From an uncultured Mucilaginibacter sp. (GTDB lineage Bacteria; Bacteroidota; Bacteroidia; Sphingobacteriales; Sphingobacteriaceae): a stretch of 14,662 bases of DNA. The notes below the pieces were generated by a model, which made no database searches, was not told where the DNA came from, and worked only from the letters and a program-made list of their open reading frames with translations. The stretch's first letter is position 1, and every line of letters starts with the position of its first letter. This document shows, one piece after another, positions 6,823 to 11,568 of this stretch. Location of the stretch: positions 1 to 14,662 of the forward strand of contig CAMLFI010000021.1 of assembly GCA_946479225.1 (NCBI GenBank). Reading direction: 5' to 3'. The position numbers were made by a program, and so were the translations under genes.

Positions 6823-6843
6823 AAACGCAATGTAGTTGCATTT
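6823..6843. promoter_or_regulatory. Palindromic candidate operator upstream of the merC-like gene
   Basis: Arms AAACGCAA (6823-6830) and TTGCATTT (6836-6843) are inverted copies matching at 7 of 8 positions around TGTAG. The site ends five bases before the -7 box at 6848, where a bound repressor would block polymerase. Two genes downstream is a Fur-family regulator, the obvious candidate protein. The size fits a Fur-family site, but I cannot match it to a published consensus with certainty. Confidence 0.5.
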
Positions 6844-6847
6844 ATAT

Positions 6848-6855
6848 TATCTTTG
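6848..6855 (+). promoter_or_regulatory. Candidate -7 promoter box of the merC-like gene
   Basis: TATCTTTG matches TAnnTTTG exactly. The predicted start is about 6860-6862, at or next to the GTG start codon at 6860, which implies a leaderless or near-leaderless transcript. A -33 TTTG is not evident at the right distance, as would fit a promoter that is weak or factor-controlled. Confidence 0.5.
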
Positions 6856-6859
6856 TGCC

Positions 6860-7297
6860 GTGAAATCGAAAAGGCGTCATTCAAGACTTGACCACATAGG
6901 TATGACAGCGTCTACGCTTTGCGCGGTGCATTGCGCTATAGTGCCGCTGATGCTTACCTTTTTACCACTTGCCGGCTTTGGTTTTTTAACGAATCCGCTG
7001 TTTGAGTGGGGCATGATATCATTGGCTTTACTGCTGGGGGTGTCTTCAATTTTTATGGCTTATTTTCGTACACACCGCCGGGCGCTGCCGCTGTTGCTGC
7101 TTTTAGCTGGCTTTGCAATGATCATATTAGGACATATTTATCTGCTAACCTGGGCCGAGGCCATTGTGGTACCTGCAGGGGGCCTCACTATTGCACTGGC
7201 TCACTTTTTGAACTATAAATATGTTGACAAGTGCAGCACCGAGTCGCATTTTTTTCATTTAAACCACAACAGGCGGGCGGGACATATACACGATTGA
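6860..7297 (+). CDS. MerC-domain small membrane protein
   Basis: A 145-residue inner-membrane protein with about four hydrophobic segments (roughly 13-40, 48-69, 76-96, 101-119, counting from the GTG). The entry motif LDHIGMTASTLCAVHC, with C21, H24 and C25, is the MerC-type metal-binding signature at the start of the first segment, and the C-terminal tail is rich in histidine (H130, H133, H136, H142, H144). MerC itself carries mercuric ions inward, but chromosomal MerC-domain proteins of Bacteroidota have no mer genes nearby and probably handle another soft metal such as zinc; this is inference. The frame also opens at a TTG (6836) that lies in the operator, upstream of the -7 box, and an ATG at 6902 would remove the conserved LDHIG, so the GTG at 6860 is favoured. 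A Fur-family regulator follows after 68 bases. Confidence 0.8.
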   Translation: MKSKRRHSRLDHIGMTASTLCAVHCAIVPLMLTFLPLAGFGFLTNPLFEWGMISLALLLGVSSIFMAYFRTHRRALPLLLLLAGFAMIILGHIYLLTWAEAIVVPAGGLTIALAHFLNYKYVDKCSTESHFFHLNHNRRAGHIHD

Positions 7298-7331
7298 AAA
7301 TTCATTGTTTTTAATCCGGTGTTATTGTTAG

Positions 7332-7339
7332 TAAATTTG
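7332..7339 (+). promoter_or_regulatory. Candidate -7 box of the fur-family gene
   Basis: TAAATTTG matches TAnnTTTG. TTG at 7305-7307 lies 24 bases upstream, slightly beyond the usual spacing. The expected start near 7346 leaves about 20 bases before the ATG at 7366. It may add to, rather than replace, transcription from the merC-like gene. Confidence 0.35.
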
Positions 7340-7365
7340 CTGCTCTGTTTATTATTCCTACAACA

Positions 7366-7797
7366 ATGGCACATACACATAATAGTGAACAACATTTTGA
7401 GCATTTGCTAAAAAGGCATAATCTTAAACGTACCGAACCACGGTTAAGGGTACTTTCTATGCTGTCGGCAAAAAATGTGGCTACGTCGCAGCCTGATCTG
7501 GAAGGCGTTATTGGCGATGTGGACCGGGTAACTTTATACAGAATTTTAAGCGCCTTTGAAGAAAAAGGCATTATCCATAAGGTTTTTGACCTTAACGGCA
7601 CGGCAAACTACGCGCTGTGTTCTTCTGACTGTGATGAGCACGATCACCGAGATGAACACCTGCATTTTAACTGCACGGCATGTAATAATGTTTACTGCCT
7701 TGATGACCATGATTTCCCCCAAATAACGCTTCCTCCAGGCTTTAAACTGGAAAGCTTTAATTTCACCGCAACCGGTTTATGCCCCAAATGCAGCTAA
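7366..7797 (+). CDS. Fur-family metalloregulator, Zur-like
   Basis: A 143-residue Fur-superfamily repressor. The N-terminal winged helix includes LKRTEPRLRVLSML (20-33) and the recognition helix DRVTLYRILSAF (53-64). The dimerisation half carries the structural zinc site as two CxxC pairs, C103/C106 and C139/C142, and a histidine cluster EHDHRDEHLHF (91-101) that would hold the sensing metal. Both CxxC pairs plus the HxHxxxHxH run suit a zinc sensor (Zur) as much as Fur or PerR, so I do not assign a symbol. It follows the merC-like metal protein in the same direction, and a palindromic site at that gene's promoter suggests the regulator controls this small unit including itself. The amidase starts 49 bases after its stop and is probably separate. 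Confidence 0.9.
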   Translation: MAHTHNSEQHFEHLLKRHNLKRTEPRLRVLSMLSAKNVATSQPDLEGVIGDVDRVTLYRILSAFEEKGIIHKVFDLNGTANYALCSSDCDEHDHRDEHLHFNCTACNNVYCLDDHDFPQITLPPGFKLESFNFTATGLCPKCS

Positions 7798-7846: not shown

Positions 7847-8659
7847 ATGCATAAACACCATACGCGCTTTAGATCAGGATTAATAAGTTTAGCGCTATTT
7901 GCAGGATATCTGTCTTTAAGTTCTTTTACTATAAATGCAGATACCACAAAAACTACATTTAAGTTTAAAACCATTGTGATTGATGCCGGGCACGGCGGAA
8001 AAGACCCAGGTGCGCACGGAGAGTTTGCGCGCGAAAAAACGGTGGCCCTATCTATCGCCAAAAAACTCCGGGAGGCGCTAAAGGCCCAGATTCCGGGTTT
8101 GAATATTGTGATGACCCGCAGCGACGATACTTTTATTGAGTTGAACCGCCGATCCCAAATAGCCAACAAAGCAAACGGAAACTTATTTATATCCATACAC
8201 TGCAACTCGTCGCCCGAAAGACCGGGCCGTACCAAAGGGGTGATGTTATTGGTGTATAAGTACAGTAAGGTTGCGTACCAGGCAGAGGCAATACGCGAAA
8301 ACGCTTCTATCTATCTGGAGAAAGACTATAAAGAGACATACAAAACTTACGATAGCAGCGATCCCATTAATCGCATTATTTTAAATGCTTTTCTTCAAAA
8401 ATACCGCAAGTACAGCATCCTGTTTGGCGATTTGGTGAATAAAGAGTTTAAAGGCGATGGCCGGCAGAGCATAGGCGTAAAAGAGCAAGACGTTTTTGTA
8501 CTAGCCCATACCGGAATGCCTGCTATTCTGGTTGAAACCGGTTTTATTAACCACCCCGAGGAAGAAAAATATCTTTCATCGGATGAAGGGCAGGACGAAA
8601 TTGTGCAGGGTATCGTTCGCGCTGTTAAAACCTATAAAACCAGTACTACCGCGCAATAA
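7847..8659 (+). CDS. N-acetylmuramoyl-L-alanine amidase (Amidase_3), exported
   Basis: It cleaves the amide bond between N-acetylmuramic acid and L-alanine in peptidoglycan, serving cell separation and wall turnover in the periplasm. The 270-residue protein begins with a basic stretch and hydrophobic core (about 11-28), a probable signal peptide, followed directly by the Amidase_3 domain. Zinc ligands are H49 in VIDAGHGGKDPGA, E63 in AREKTVAL and H118 in ISIHCNSS; the catalytic E230 lies in VETGFINHPEEE. It has no LysM, SPOR or AMIN domain, and there is the usual family insertion (about 135-200) between the second histidine and the last motif, which in AmiA/AmiB-type enzymes can carry an autoinhibitory helix. 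The stop lies only 22 bases before the riboswitch that controls the next gene. Confidence 0.93.
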   Translation: MHKHHTRFRSGLISLALFAGYLSLSSFTINADTTKTTFKFKTIVIDAGHGGKDPGAHGEFAREKTVALSIAKKLREALKAQIPGLNIVMTRSDDTFIELNRRSQIANKANGNLFISIHCNSSPERPGRTKGVMLLVYKYSKVAYQAEAIRENASIYLEKDYKETYKTYDSSDPINRIILNAFLQKYRKYSILFGDLVNKEFKGDGRQSIGVKEQDVFVLAHTGMPAILVETGFINHPEEEKYLSSDEGQDEIVQGIVRAVKTYKTSTTAQ

Positions 8660-8666
8660 AATTTTA

Positions 8667-8674
8667 TATCTTTA
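8667..8674 (+). promoter_or_regulatory. Candidate -7 box of the fluoride riboswitch transcript
   Basis: TATCTTTA matches TAnnTTTG except the last base. The expected start, about 8679-8681, is exactly where the aptamer begins, which supports it. No -33 TTTG is seen at the usual distance. Confidence 0.4.
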
Positions 8675-8680
8675 CTTAAC

Positions 8681-8731
8681 GGAAATGGTGTCTTCCGATT
8701 TGAACCGCCCTAAAAAGCTGATGGCGCCTGC
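8681..8731 (+). ncRNA. Fluoride riboswitch aptamer (crcB motif)
   Basis: A fluoride-binding aptamer in the leader of the CLC gene. Stem 1 is GGAA (8681-8684) with TTCC (8693-8696), closing the loop ATGGTGTC, which matches the Thermotoga petrophila aptamer loop AUGGUGUU at 7 of 8 bases. Loop bases 8687-8692 (GGTGTC) can pair all along with 8723-8728 (GGCGCC), with two G-U pairs, giving the defining pseudoknot. The conserved blocks GAACCGCC (8702-8709) and GCTGATG (8717-8723), then GCGCCTGC, follow in order. The second stem is weak here: only two or so pairs at GC/GC around an A-rich loop. Position directly before a CLC-F-like transporter gene is the strongest independent support. Recognition was by eye against the remembered consensus. 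Confidence 0.85.
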
Positions 8732-8748
8732 AAAAATTAACGCTATAC

Positions 8749-8782
8749 ATCGCCTTGCTAAAACAGGCGATCAATATTTTTT
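8749..8782 (+). terminator. Candidate expression-platform hairpin of the riboswitch
   Basis: ATCGCCT (8749-8755) pairs with AGGCGAT (8765-8771) over seven bases around a nine-base loop, and a run of six T follows at 8777-8782, seven bases before the transporter ATG. The five bases between stem and T-run make it an imperfect intrinsic terminator. CAGGCG (8764-8769) can instead pair with CGCCTG (8725-8730) inside the aptamer, giving two exclusive folds. Confidence 0.5.
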
Positions 8783-8789
8783 GTAGGAC

Positions 8790-10085
8790 ATGAACACTAA
8801 TTTAAAATTCCCTTCTGTTTCTCTTAACACACTAAAACATATTATTCGTTGGACGGCTATTACCGCGCCCGTAGCTGTGGCTATTGGCAGCATGGTTGCC
8901 CTGTTTTTATGGCTGCTTAATTGGGCCATACATTTTAGGTTTACTCACCCCTGGTTGCTTTATGTTTTACCGCTGGCGGGTGTAGCTATATGGTTCACAT
9001 ATAAAAAGTGGGGTGGCGCGTCTGACAAGGGCAACAACCTGATAATGGAAGAAATACACACGCCGGGTGGCGGTGTGCCTAAACGGCTGGCACCTTTAGT
9101 GCTTGTGGCTACTGTAGTTACGCACCTTTTTGGCGGATCGGCCGGGCGCGAAGGAACTGCAGTGCAAATGGGGGGTAGTATAGCACAATTTTTCAGCAAG
9201 CAGTTTAAGTTAAATGCCACTGATACACGCATTATGCTCACCGCAGGTGTTGCAGCCGGATTTGGCGCGGTTTTCGGAACGCCTTTGGCCGGGGCCATAT
9301 TTGCGCTGGAAGTACTTGCCATTGGTCGCATTCAATACGATGCCTTACTGGCCTGCCTTATCGCTGCCATTATGGGCGACCTGACGGTAAGCGCCTGGGG
9401 TATTCATCATACCGCTTACCATATTGATATTGTACCGGCAACCCAGAACGCGCTTTCGCCTTATTTCAATTTGGATATGTTGCTGCTATTAAAGATTATT
9501 GCAGCGGCAGTAATATTTGGCATTACCAGCCGGCTGTTTGCACAGGCCGTTCATGCCGTAAAAAACACTTTAAACAAATTTATTGCTCCCGAATGGCTTG
9601 TCCCTGCAATCGGCGGTGTATTAATAATAGCGCTAACATTTATTATCGGCAAACCCGATTATTTGAGCCTGGGCGTTGATGCTGAATATCCCGGTGCGGT
9701 AACTATCCCCTCCGCTTTTAGTTTATCTGGAGCCCATACCTGGAGCTGGTTATGGAAAACCATTTATACCGCAATAACCCTGGGCTCGGGCTTTAAAGGT
9801 GGCGAGGTGACTCCGCTATTTTATATTGGCGCAACTTTAGGCAATACCTTGTCCCAATTAATGGATGCGCCCGTAAGCCTTTTTGCGGCCCTGGGATTCA
9901 TCGCTGTTTTTGCCGGGGCTACCAATACCCCGCTGGCTTGTACCATAATGGGCGTTGAGCTTTTTGGCGGCGAGTATGTGCTTTTCTTCGCCGTAGCCTG
10001 TTTTACTGCTTATTTTTTTAGCGGCAAATCGGGTATTTATAGAGCGCAGCTTGTAGCAGTCCCTAAGGTGCAAAGAGACGGATAA
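8790..10085 (+). CDS. CLC-family transporter, probable CLC-F fluoride/proton antiporter
   Basis: A 431-residue polytopic inner-membrane protein of the CLC fold that most likely expels fluoride in exchange for protons. CLC landmarks are GSAGREGT (116-123) with the gating glutamate E121, GFGAVFGTPLAGAIFALEV (158-176), GSGFKGGEVTPLF (332-344) and GATNTPLA (376-383). Three features mark the CLC-F clade rather than chloride CLCs: GREGT instead of GREGP; KGNN (80-83) where chloride CLCs have GSGIP; and E339 and T341 in GGEVTP, matching Glu318 and Thr320 of the Enterococcus CLC-F. Y417 lies 78 residues after E339, the same distance as Tyr396 from Glu318 in that protein (numbers from memory). The fluoride riboswitch upstream agrees. 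Translation starts at the ATG four bases after the TAG of a spurious frame. It is alone in its unit. Confidence 0.9.
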   Translation: MNTNLKFPSVSLNTLKHIIRWTAITAPVAVAIGSMVALFLWLLNWAIHFRFTHPWLLYVLPLAGVAIWFTYKKWGGASDKGNNLIMEEIHTPGGGVPKRLAPLVLVATVVTHLFGGSAGREGTAVQMGGSIAQFFSKQFKLNATDTRIMLTAGVAAGFGAVFGTPLAGAIFALEVLAIGRIQYDALLACLIAAIMGDLTVSAWGIHHTAYHIDIVPATQNALSPYFNLDMLLLLKIIAAAVIFGITSRLFAQAVHAVKNTLNKFIAPEWLVPAIGGVLIIALTFIIGKPDYLSLGVDAEYPGAVTIPSAFSLSGAHTWSWLWKTIYTAITLGSGFKGGEVTPLFYIGATLGNTLSQLMDAPVSLFAALGFIAVFAGATNTPLACTIMGVELFGGEYVLFFAVACFTAYFFSGKSGIYRAQLVAVPKVQRDG

Positions 10086-10114
10086 TCAAAAGATTAGCCC
10101 TGCTTCTGTAAACT

Positions 10115-10143
10115 ATTTGTGACACTAAAGGTGTTTGACAAAT
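10115..10143. promoter_or_regulatory. Inverted repeat overlapping the xylanase -33 box
   Basis: ATTTGT (10115-10120) and ACAC (10122-10125) pair with GTGT (10131-10134) and ACAAAT (10138-10143) around TAAAG. It overlaps the -33 element, so it could be an operator. It could also be a weak end structure for the CLC transcript, although no T-run follows. Confidence 0.3.
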
Positions 10144-10164
10144 AAACTCCTTTCATTAGCTTTA
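10134..10164 (+). promoter_or_regulatory. Candidate promoter of the xylanase gene
   Basis: TTTG at 10134-10137 and TAGCTTTA at 10157-10164 are 19 bases apart, a near-ideal Bacteroidota -33/-7 pair with a single mismatch in the last -7 base. The start would be near 10170, giving a leader of about 78 bases before the ATG at 10249. Confidence 0.55.
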
Positions 10165-10171
10165 TATAATA

Positions 10172-10213
10172 AAAAATGTGTGCGTATTCTGAGCCAACGG
10201 GATGCGCATTTTT
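10172..10213 (+). other. Hairpin in the xylanase leader, ending in a T-run
   Basis: 10172-10182 pairs with 10203-10213 over eleven positions, three of them G-U, around a 20-base loop, and the 3' arm ends in five T. It lies just after the predicted start, so it could be an early terminator, a stabilising 5' structure, or the terminator of the CLC gene if the promoter call is wrong. Confidence 0.4.
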
Positions 10214-10248
10214 AGTCATAACCCTTTATTAACCAAATAGAAACCAAG

Positions 10249-11568
10249 ATGTCAAATTTTTATCGTTCATTAAGCACGGCCCCAAAACGGCATGCAAAAA
10301 CAGCAGTAATTGCATTAGCGCTGGGATCTGCCATTGTAGCTGTACAATGGATGGACCCTAAACCGAAAGCTCCGAAAACCCGGGCAGCAGCCGAAAAAGG
10401 TTTAAAAGATTATTATAAAGGTTATTTTAAAATAGGTGTAGCAGTTAACGTGCGTAACACCGGTGGCGGCGACGAAACCGAGCTGATAAAAAAAGAATTT
10501 AACAGCATAACGCCCGAGAATGATATGAAAATGATTTCGGTACACCCATCAGAACACGTGTGGAACTGGGAAAATGCCGACAAAATTGCCGACTTTGCTG
10601 TTAAAAACGGCATCAAACTACGCGGTCATAATTTATTATGGCACGCACAGGTAGGTGCATGGATGTTTAAGGATAGCATAACAGGGCAACCCGTTACAAA
10701 AGAGGTGCTTTTACAGCGCCTAAAAACCCATATCACTACTGTTGTAAAGCGCTATAAAGGCAAAATTTACGCCTGGGATGTAGTAAATGAGGCGATTGAT
10801 GATAAAGAGGGTGTGTTTATGCGTAATTCGCAATGGTACCAGATAGCCGGCGACGACTTTATACCAGCAGCATTTACTTATGCGCATGCTGCCGATCCAA
10901 AGGTTGAACTATACTATAACGACTATAACGAAAGCAACCCAAGCAAAAGAGACAAAATATACCAACTGGTAAAAACCCTATTAGAGAAAAAAATCCCTAT
11001 TACAGGTATAGGCTTGCAATGCCACTGGAAAATTGAGAGCCCAAGTACAGAAGATATCAGGGCCGCTTTTGCAAAATACGCGTCGTTAGGTGTGAAGTTG
11101 CAGGTTACCGAACTGGATATAACTGCCCGTCAGCAACGCCCTCGCGGGGAAACACCCGATACTGCGGCGGCTTATAGCGCAGAAATGTCTGAAAGACAAA
11201 CAAAGCGTTACAAAGAGGTGTTCGAGATATTCCGCGAAAATAAAAAATATCTTAACAGTGTAACGTTCTGGAACGTGTCTGACCGCGGAAGCTGGTTAGA
11301 TGGCCGCAACATGTTTGCCGGTGGCGCAGCTGCAACTGCAGCGCCTGCCGGAGCTCCACCAGCTGGCGGCCCCCCTGCGGGTGCTCCTCCTGCCGGCGGC
11401 CCTCCTGCTGCTAATCGCCCTGCCGGTGCCCCTGGTGCTGGTGGTCCTCCTGCCGGATTCGGCGGCGGCCGCGGTGGTGGCGCGAGAATTAAAGCTTACC
11501 CGCTTTTATTCGGCGTGAACCTGGAGCGCAAACCTGCTTATTTTGCAGTTGTCGATTTTAAGAAATAA
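10249..11568 (+). CDS. Endo-1,4-beta-xylanase, GH10 family, with low-complexity insertion
   Basis: It hydrolyses internal beta-1,4 bonds of xylan by the retaining mechanism. In the 439-residue protein a basic N-terminus and hydrophobic stretch (19-33) indicate a signal peptide or membrane anchor. The GH10 barrel follows: ITPENDMKM (87-95), RGHNLLWH (125-132), the acid/base E181 in WDVVNEA, LYYNDYN (221-227), GLQCHW (255-260), and the nucleophile E288 in QVTELDI. The segment SWLDGRN (348-354) should continue to YPLLF (417-421) after a few residues. Here residues about 357-414 form a run of Ala, Pro and Gly, with repeats of the GAPPAGGPPA kind, in the loop after beta-strand 8. No carbohydrate-binding module or SusC/D genes are seen. 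It ends at a strong terminator facing the MFS gene. Confidence 0.93.
   Translation: MSNFYRSLSTAPKRHAKTAVIALALGSAIVAVQWMDPKPKAPKTRAAAEKGLKDYYKGYFKIGVAVNVRNTGGGDETELIKKEFNSITPENDMKMISVHPSEHVWNWENADKIADFAVKNGIKLRGHNLLWHAQVGAWMFKDSITGQPVTKEVLLQRLKTHITTVVKRYKGKIYAWDVVNEAIDDKEGVFMRNSQWYQIAGDDFIPAAFTYAHAADPKVELYYNDYNESNPSKRDKIYQLVKTLLEKKIPITGIGLQCHWKIESPSTEDIRAAFAKYASLGVKLQVTELDITARQQRPRGETPDTAAAYSAEMSERQTKRYKEVFEIFRENKKYLNSVTFWNVSDRGSWLDGRNMFAGGAAATAAPAGAPPAGGPPAGAPPAGGPPAANRPAGAPGAGGPPAGFGGGRGGGARIKAYPLLFGVNLERKPAYFAVVDFKK
11317..11490 (+). repeat. Pro/Ala/Gly-rich coding repeat within the xylanase
   Basis: Codons 357-414 encode about 58 residues that are almost only A, P and G, ending in GFGGGRGGGAR. 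GAPPAGGPPA is repeated in tandem in its first half. At DNA level it is GC-rich, with imperfect 15-30 base units that would favour slippage. It lies inside the barrel domain, not between domains as linkers usually do. Confidence 0.85.

Follow-up and report, generated by a model that had tools for sequence, protein, structure and literature searches.

Fluoride exporters of the CLC-F type are most frequent in Bacteroidetes, where about 30% of species have them, and about 30% of CLC-Fs are under riboswitch control (PMC11139923). This 2024 review gives GNNLI/GMGLI, GREGT/V and GEVTP as CLC-F signatures, listing both the Asn-type and the Met-type form of the first, and describes the fluoride-inhibited enzyme enolase as often encoded in such operons. 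Covariation models of whole fluoride riboswitches have been published in which the pseudoknot strand is common to the terminator stem P4 (PMC13273304, 2026); in that paper a search over all variants gave nothing new except a reduced U-run, which was interpreted as spanning the two types of expression platform. Translational fluoride riboswitches are named in the same source for Pseudomonas syringae and Burkholderia pseudomallei. Fluoride locks the A40-U48 linchpin pair that immediately follows the pseudoknot of the Bacillus aptamer (PMC8752731). Bacteroidetes mRNAs are described as lacking Shine-Dalgarno sequences, and RNA structure around the start codon as tuning their initiation (PMC6847099).

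The locus compared with these systems lies in a stretch of 14,662 nucleotides from an uncultured Mucilaginibacter sp., referred to here as the window. An earlier note, made from the sequence alone, had proposed that a fluoride riboswitch stands in front of a CLC-F exporter gene in this DNA, and the analysis bore this out by a match to the Rfam fluoride riboswitch family (RF01734) and by the signatures, clade and solved-structure match (6d0j) of the encoded protein. Given the frequencies in the review, a riboswitch-exporter pair is to be expected in this phylum; since such pairs are known, it is a new example of a known arrangement. The features of the locus, with the evidence for each, were as follows.

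8667..8674, plus strand: possible Bacteroidetes -7 promoter box TATCTTTA (seven of eight positions of TAnnTTTG)
8672..8737, plus strand: fluoride riboswitch aptamer (RF01734 match, 45.8 bits)
8681..8696, plus strand: stem 1 (P1), whose loop holds GGUGUC (8687-8692), the 5' strand of the pseudoknot (RF01734 match, motif positions)
8707..8718, plus strand: P3 region GCCCUAAAAAGC, two contiguous pairs (pair count)
8723..8728, plus strand: pseudoknot 3' strand GGCGCC, its final two nucleotides common to the switch helix (sequence comparison)
8727..8736, plus strand: 5' arm of the switch helix, CCUGCAAAAA (leader statistics; fold pair probabilities 0.84-1.00)
8749..8771, plus strand: local hairpin AUCGCCU/AGGCGAU within the switch-helix loop (fold)
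8778..8787, plus strand: UUUUUGUAGG, the 3' arm of the switch helix, which stops 2 nt short of the ATG (fold; pairing conserved over relatives)
8790..10085, plus strand: gene for a putative CLC-F type fluoride/proton antiporter of 431 aa (Voltage_CLC, 6d0j match, tree, signatures)

The covariance model search that the earlier note had suggested matched the whole of RF01734 (model positions 1-64) at 8672-8737 on the plus strand with 45.8 bits and an E-value of 3.9e-10, above the curated cut-off of 34 bits, which scores sequence and structure together. RF01734 was the sole Rfam family called in the window at the gathering threshold. Stem 1, the GGTGTC/GGCGCC pseudoknot and the conserved motifs AACCGCC (from 8703) and GCTGATG (from 8717) were all found at the positions that the note had given. 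Of the helices of the family, P1 was present, the pseudoknot had six pairs, two of them G-U, and P3 was short; the reduction of P3 to two contiguous pairs is one point at which the window differs from the RF01734 model. Judged on these features, the aptamer is a fluoride riboswitch of the crcB/RF01734 class, and the window RNA would be expected to bind fluoride.

The note had also described the second stem as unusually weak and possibly the mark of a divergent variant. The stem is indeed short, but many leaders of the lineage share the two-pair form. Among the 175 unique leaders used for the helix test below, a simple count gave two contiguous P3 pairs in 59, three in 62, four or more in 42 and fewer than two in eight (four were unreadable), with some rows scored zero or one showing a longer stem in another register. 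The 12-nucleotide P3 region of the window was identical in 22 of the 175. A divergent or non-fluoride aptamer was set aside on the ground that the two-pair P3 is so common (59/175).

Upstream of the aptamer, the presumed Bacteroidetes -7 promoter consensus, which we take to be TAnnTTTG, occurs exactly in several relatives (L001, L004, L006, L007 and L031). The window site carries no exact match, and the exact pattern is present in the window at chance level (15 found, 16.8 expected), so that this box is given here as a possible one. No sigma-70 promoter was called on the plus strand before the aptamer, and that reading was set aside.

The product of the 8790-10085 reading frame was assigned to Voltage_CLC by Pfam and carries the full set of CLC-F signatures of the review, with GNNLI starting at residue 81, GREGT at 119 and GEVTP at 338. 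It also has E339, T341 and Y417, and these and GREGT are as the earlier note had read them. The best solved chain was 6d0j, a fluoride/proton antiporter, with E = 4.5e-59, while the first ClcA entry scored 3.4e-09. In this alignment E121, E339, T341 and Y417 were matched to residues 121, 321, 323 and 399 of the chain. Judging from the mutant chains 6d0k (E to Q) and 6d0n (V to G), the numbering of the chain exceeds that of the published E118 and V319 by 3; the four window residues are therefore equivalent to E118, E318, T320 and Y396, the last of which we take to be the published name of the residue matching Y417. What E118 and E318 do is set out in PMC12035849, where T320 is also named. The CLC-F of Enterococcus casseliflavus (PDB 6D0J) thus shares GREGT/V, GEVTP and these four equivalents with the window protein over aligned residues 27-422, and differs in having M79 where the window protein has an Asn (GNN).

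In a tree of 48 CLC rows, made of the window protein and fetched loci and linked to a functionally proven CLC-F through the 6d0j match, all 22 rows with GREGT and GEVTP fell on one side of a branch with support 100/99, and the 26 other CLC rows fell opposite. This placement, which the note had proposed as a check, grouped the window protein with Mucilaginibacter sequences in a set of five rows (98/97), its closest row being 78% identical. In a large protein database the nearest relative besides an identical entry was 92% identical (among the 120 best of 8000 scored), and a search of plasmids matched 143 records, the best identity being 69.9% among the 20 listed.

These results support the assignment of the 8790-10085 product to the CLC-F type, and fluoride would be its predicted substrate. 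It is very improbable that the gene instead encodes a chloride-type CLC behind an RNA that has decayed or is unrelated to the fluoride riboswitch. The database names do point that way, since the source names, where given among the 120 listed relatives, are chloride channel or ClcA, and the weak P3 could suggest decay of the RNA; against this stand the three CLC-F signatures, the difference of some fifty orders of magnitude in E-value between the 6d0j and ClcA matches, the clade separate from other CLCs and the match of the whole aptamer model above its curated cut-off. The chloride CLC reading was set aside on the 6d0j match and the supported clade. The warning in the note that a chloride channel annotation would mislead therefore holds, for the Pfam assignment as well as for the names of relatives, and the locus is a further example of how misleading such names are for the CLC-F protein group.

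The pairing of riboswitch and exporter was widespread. A protein-similarity scan found 146 loci encoding a relative, of which 80 were kept, and 74 of these 80 had an RF01734 match; the six without were L002, L025, L061, L064, L068 and L080, and in L025 and L080 the protein match begins near a contig end. Among the 74 loci, 51 had at most 400 nt between the end of the aptamer and the protein match, and in 23 the aptamer lay farther upstream. In two Pedobacter loci (L009:1559-3982 and L003:2210-3969) the riboswitch was 1.7-2.4 kb 5' of the CLC-F gene with an enolase gene between them; L009 additionally carries a short EamA-like ORF, and the first ORF behind its switch (184 aa) had no Pfam match. 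In L002 (2554-5344), a locus with no RF01734 match, a chloride-type CLC gene (GSGIP, GREGP) stands directly 5' of the CLC-F gene. RF01734 scored above the cut-off in at least 99 of 201 sampled genomes of the nearest genome's family and in at least 46 of 395 genomes of a phylum sample, both being lower bounds because the filters used lose weak matches.

No expression platform had been described in the earlier note. One is visible here: the end of the pseudoknot 3' strand and the A-rich tail that follows it (8727-8736) can pair with 8778-8787, and the ATG lies 2 nt past the helix. When the window was compared with 15 relatives, a CCUAC(AAAA) after the pseudoknot was often matched by a (UUUU)GUAGG at the start codon. 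The helix, which was required to include the final two nucleotides of the pseudoknot 3' strand, was assessed in 218 leaders (175 unique), with a CLC-F relative within 2.6 kb in 152 of the 175. Compared with 300 dinucleotide shuffles of the downstream part, it reached p≤0.05 in 90 of the 175 leaders and p≤0.01 in 43, and 85 missed p≤0.05; related leaders are not independent, and these counts are not to be read as probabilities. After clustering at a ratio of 0.85 the corresponding figures were 65/116 and 34/116. The window helix, with ten pairs, had p = 0.03 and is by itself only moderately improbable by chance.

When downstream parts were swapped in from other arm classes, the native pairing beat 95% of the swaps in 75 of 175 leaders, again not independent of one another, where about nine would be expected by construction. 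By arm class, this held for 31/62 GCCUAC, 13/29 GCCUGC, 14/16 GCCUGA, 5/17 GUCUAC, 3/25 UCCUAC and 0/5 GCCUGG leaders, and for 9/21 in the other eight classes. A single platform for all leaders was unsupported, the 25 UCCUAC-arm leaders being mostly without the helix. Leaders of that type stand before ORFs starting MPVK (L091-L097, L100, L103, L104, L107, L109, L112-L117, L119 and L120), and CLC-F genes lie behind some UCCUAC-arm leaders (L092, L104 and L117). By eye, many of them have an A/U-rich hairpin before the ATG instead of the switch helix.

Covariation was scored in 28 leaders, all picked for a clear helix and aligned with MAFFT without structure. In this picked set the ten proposed pairs were formed in 91.8% of cells, compared to 29.6-49.3% when the arms were slid. 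None of 500 shuffles attained the observed count of doubly changed cells (17) or the covariation score (0.178); two measures out of five were unexceptional in these 28 leaders, namely pairs with double changes (3; 72/500) and further pair types (8; 316/500). One helix pair was AU in 14, GC in 11 and GU in 3 rows. A concerted change was also observed across three strands, the 5' and 3' ones of the pseudoknot and the one in the start region, which in this order read GG/CC/GG in the common form and GA/UC/GA in 12 leaders (for example GAUGUC/GACGUC/GUAGAC); such a joint change of three strands is as predicted by mutually exclusive pairing. These comparisons showed that a putative competing helix at the start codon is conserved, with compensatory changes, in Bacteroidota leaders.

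The position of the helix relative to the start codon was determined in the 134 of 175 leaders in which it was called at a stack energy of -9 kcal/mol or better. The first start codon to open an ORF at least 50 codons long lay inside the helix in 34 (33 GTG and one ATG), 1-12 nt past it in 76 and 13-25 nt past it in 11, and was absent in 13. Where a downstream GREGT/V ORF was located, the switch start codon opened the exporter ORF directly in 80 leaders, and at least 90 nt separated it from the exporter ATG in 17. In 15 of these 17 long-gap leaders, some of which are close kin (for example L034 and L057), the frame of the switch codon stayed open and stopped within 29 nt of the exporter start, where shuffling predicts 2.0 of 17; L172 and L193 were the misses. 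Frames 1 and 2 reached to within 50 nt of the exporter start in one and two of the 17, respectively.

The 15 leader ORFs are 30-77 codons long (L008, L011, L033, L034, L043, L044, L047, L057, L059, L060, L072, L076, L079, L161 and L164) and start with GTG in 14 cases and with ATG in L047. No clear shared sequence was seen by eye among their peptides. Short ORFs also lie behind the switch in leaders with no exporter located in the searched stretch (for example L003, L012, L030, L058, L149 and L177), and these were left out of the count of 15 in 17. The kept reading frame is separate evidence that translation starts at the GTG within the helix, and it points to a possible translational coupling of leader ORF and exporter in the long-gap relatives. 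The window has no leader ORF of this kind.

The most probable reading of these observations is that the crcB/RF01734 riboswitch controls the CLC-F antiporter at the level of translation, as an ON switch; both the direction and the level of control are predictions drawn from the leader. When fluoride is absent, the 5' arm CCUGCAAAAA would pair with UUUUUGUAGG just 5' of the ATG, and this helix would impede the loading of ribosomes. Once Mg-fluoride is bound, the pseudoknot would hold GGCGCC and, by analogy with the Bacillus linchpin pair, the following U8729 as well; the sequestering helix would then lose these bases and open, and the exporter would be made. Translational control, reported for the P. 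syringae and B. pseudomallei switches, would be shared by the window. Those two switches presumably hide a Shine-Dalgarno sequence, whereas the window switch would hide the start-codon region. A helix that hides the start region fits a phylum whose mRNAs are without Shine-Dalgarno sequences and whose initiation is tuned by start-codon structure.

Alternatively, the same riboswitch could control transcription, with the hairpin at 8749-8771 and the U-run at 8778-8783 acting as an intrinsic terminator whose formation fluoride prevents, as in Bacillus cereus. A hairpin containing G+C does precede a U-run in the window, leaders with a like hairpin and U-run occur in near relatives (for example L004-L007), and for this class of riboswitch terminator platforms that use the pseudoknot strand have been established (PMC13273304); the pseudoknot 3' strand is common to aptamer and platform in those terminator models as it is in the window. 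However, no terminator was called at the platform (three were called elsewhere in 8500-10300, where 2.4 were expected), the U-run begins 6 nt past the hairpin and lies within the switch helix, and many relatives keep the helix without a U-run (for example L003, L009, L012 and L037). The Bacillus cereus arrangement, a pseudoknot-sharing hairpin with a U-run directly after it, had no counterpart at this platform. Termination is unsupported here because the competing helix of the window, unlike the RF01734 terminator platforms, stands at the start codon with no U-run after it; we regard it as unlikely, and it was set aside as the main reading for want of a call at the platform and on the loss of the U-run in many relatives.

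Folding of the leaders bore on the translational model in both directions. When the window leader (8679-8825) was folded alone, the helix was in the minimum-energy structure, and blocking the pseudoknot strands and the next U opened the last five nucleotides of its 3' arm only partly (0.00 to 0.27). The same blocking made the window AUG less open (0.80 to 0.59), and both results argue against the translational model. The comparison was scored in 121 of the 134 helix leaders. Where the start codon lies in the helix, blocking raised codon access in 37 of 41 leaders (mean 0.05 to 0.25) and opened the helix end in 39; where it follows the helix, access rose in 46 of 80 (0.54 to 0.57) and the helix end opened in 78. 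Since the fold model includes no energy for the pseudoknot or for fluoride, such folds cannot settle the mechanism.

Beyond the window, we somewhat favour the view that the fluoride riboswitches of many Bacteroidota belong to a translational class of their own. In this class the region around the start codon, which is often a paired GUG, would be captured by the pseudoknot strand, and in some Mucilaginibacter, Parapedobacter, Pontibacter and other relatives the switch would gate a leader ORF, unconserved in sequence, through whose translation the exporter gene is opened by coupling. Two features, both seen by sequence comparison, go beyond an ordinary example: the helix conserved at the start region and the putatively coupled leader ORFs of relatives. 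No description of a start-codon platform in Bacteroidota was found in the literature searched, which was open-access and left most subscription journals outside it. If this view is true, riboswitches here would control translation without any Shine-Dalgarno sequence, and the locus would offer a simple, testable model of such control in a phylum without that sequence, backed by covariation and by the kept frames.

Other features were noted in the window. A gene for a MerC-family membrane protein is followed by one for a Fur-family regulator at 6836-7797; the best NCBIfam match of the regulator was to Zur, with a score below the Zur cut-off. In the 3' part of a GH10 xylanase gene (10249-11568) lies a tandem repeat rich in Pro, Ala and Gly (11344-11456), with a period of 30 and 3.8 copies.
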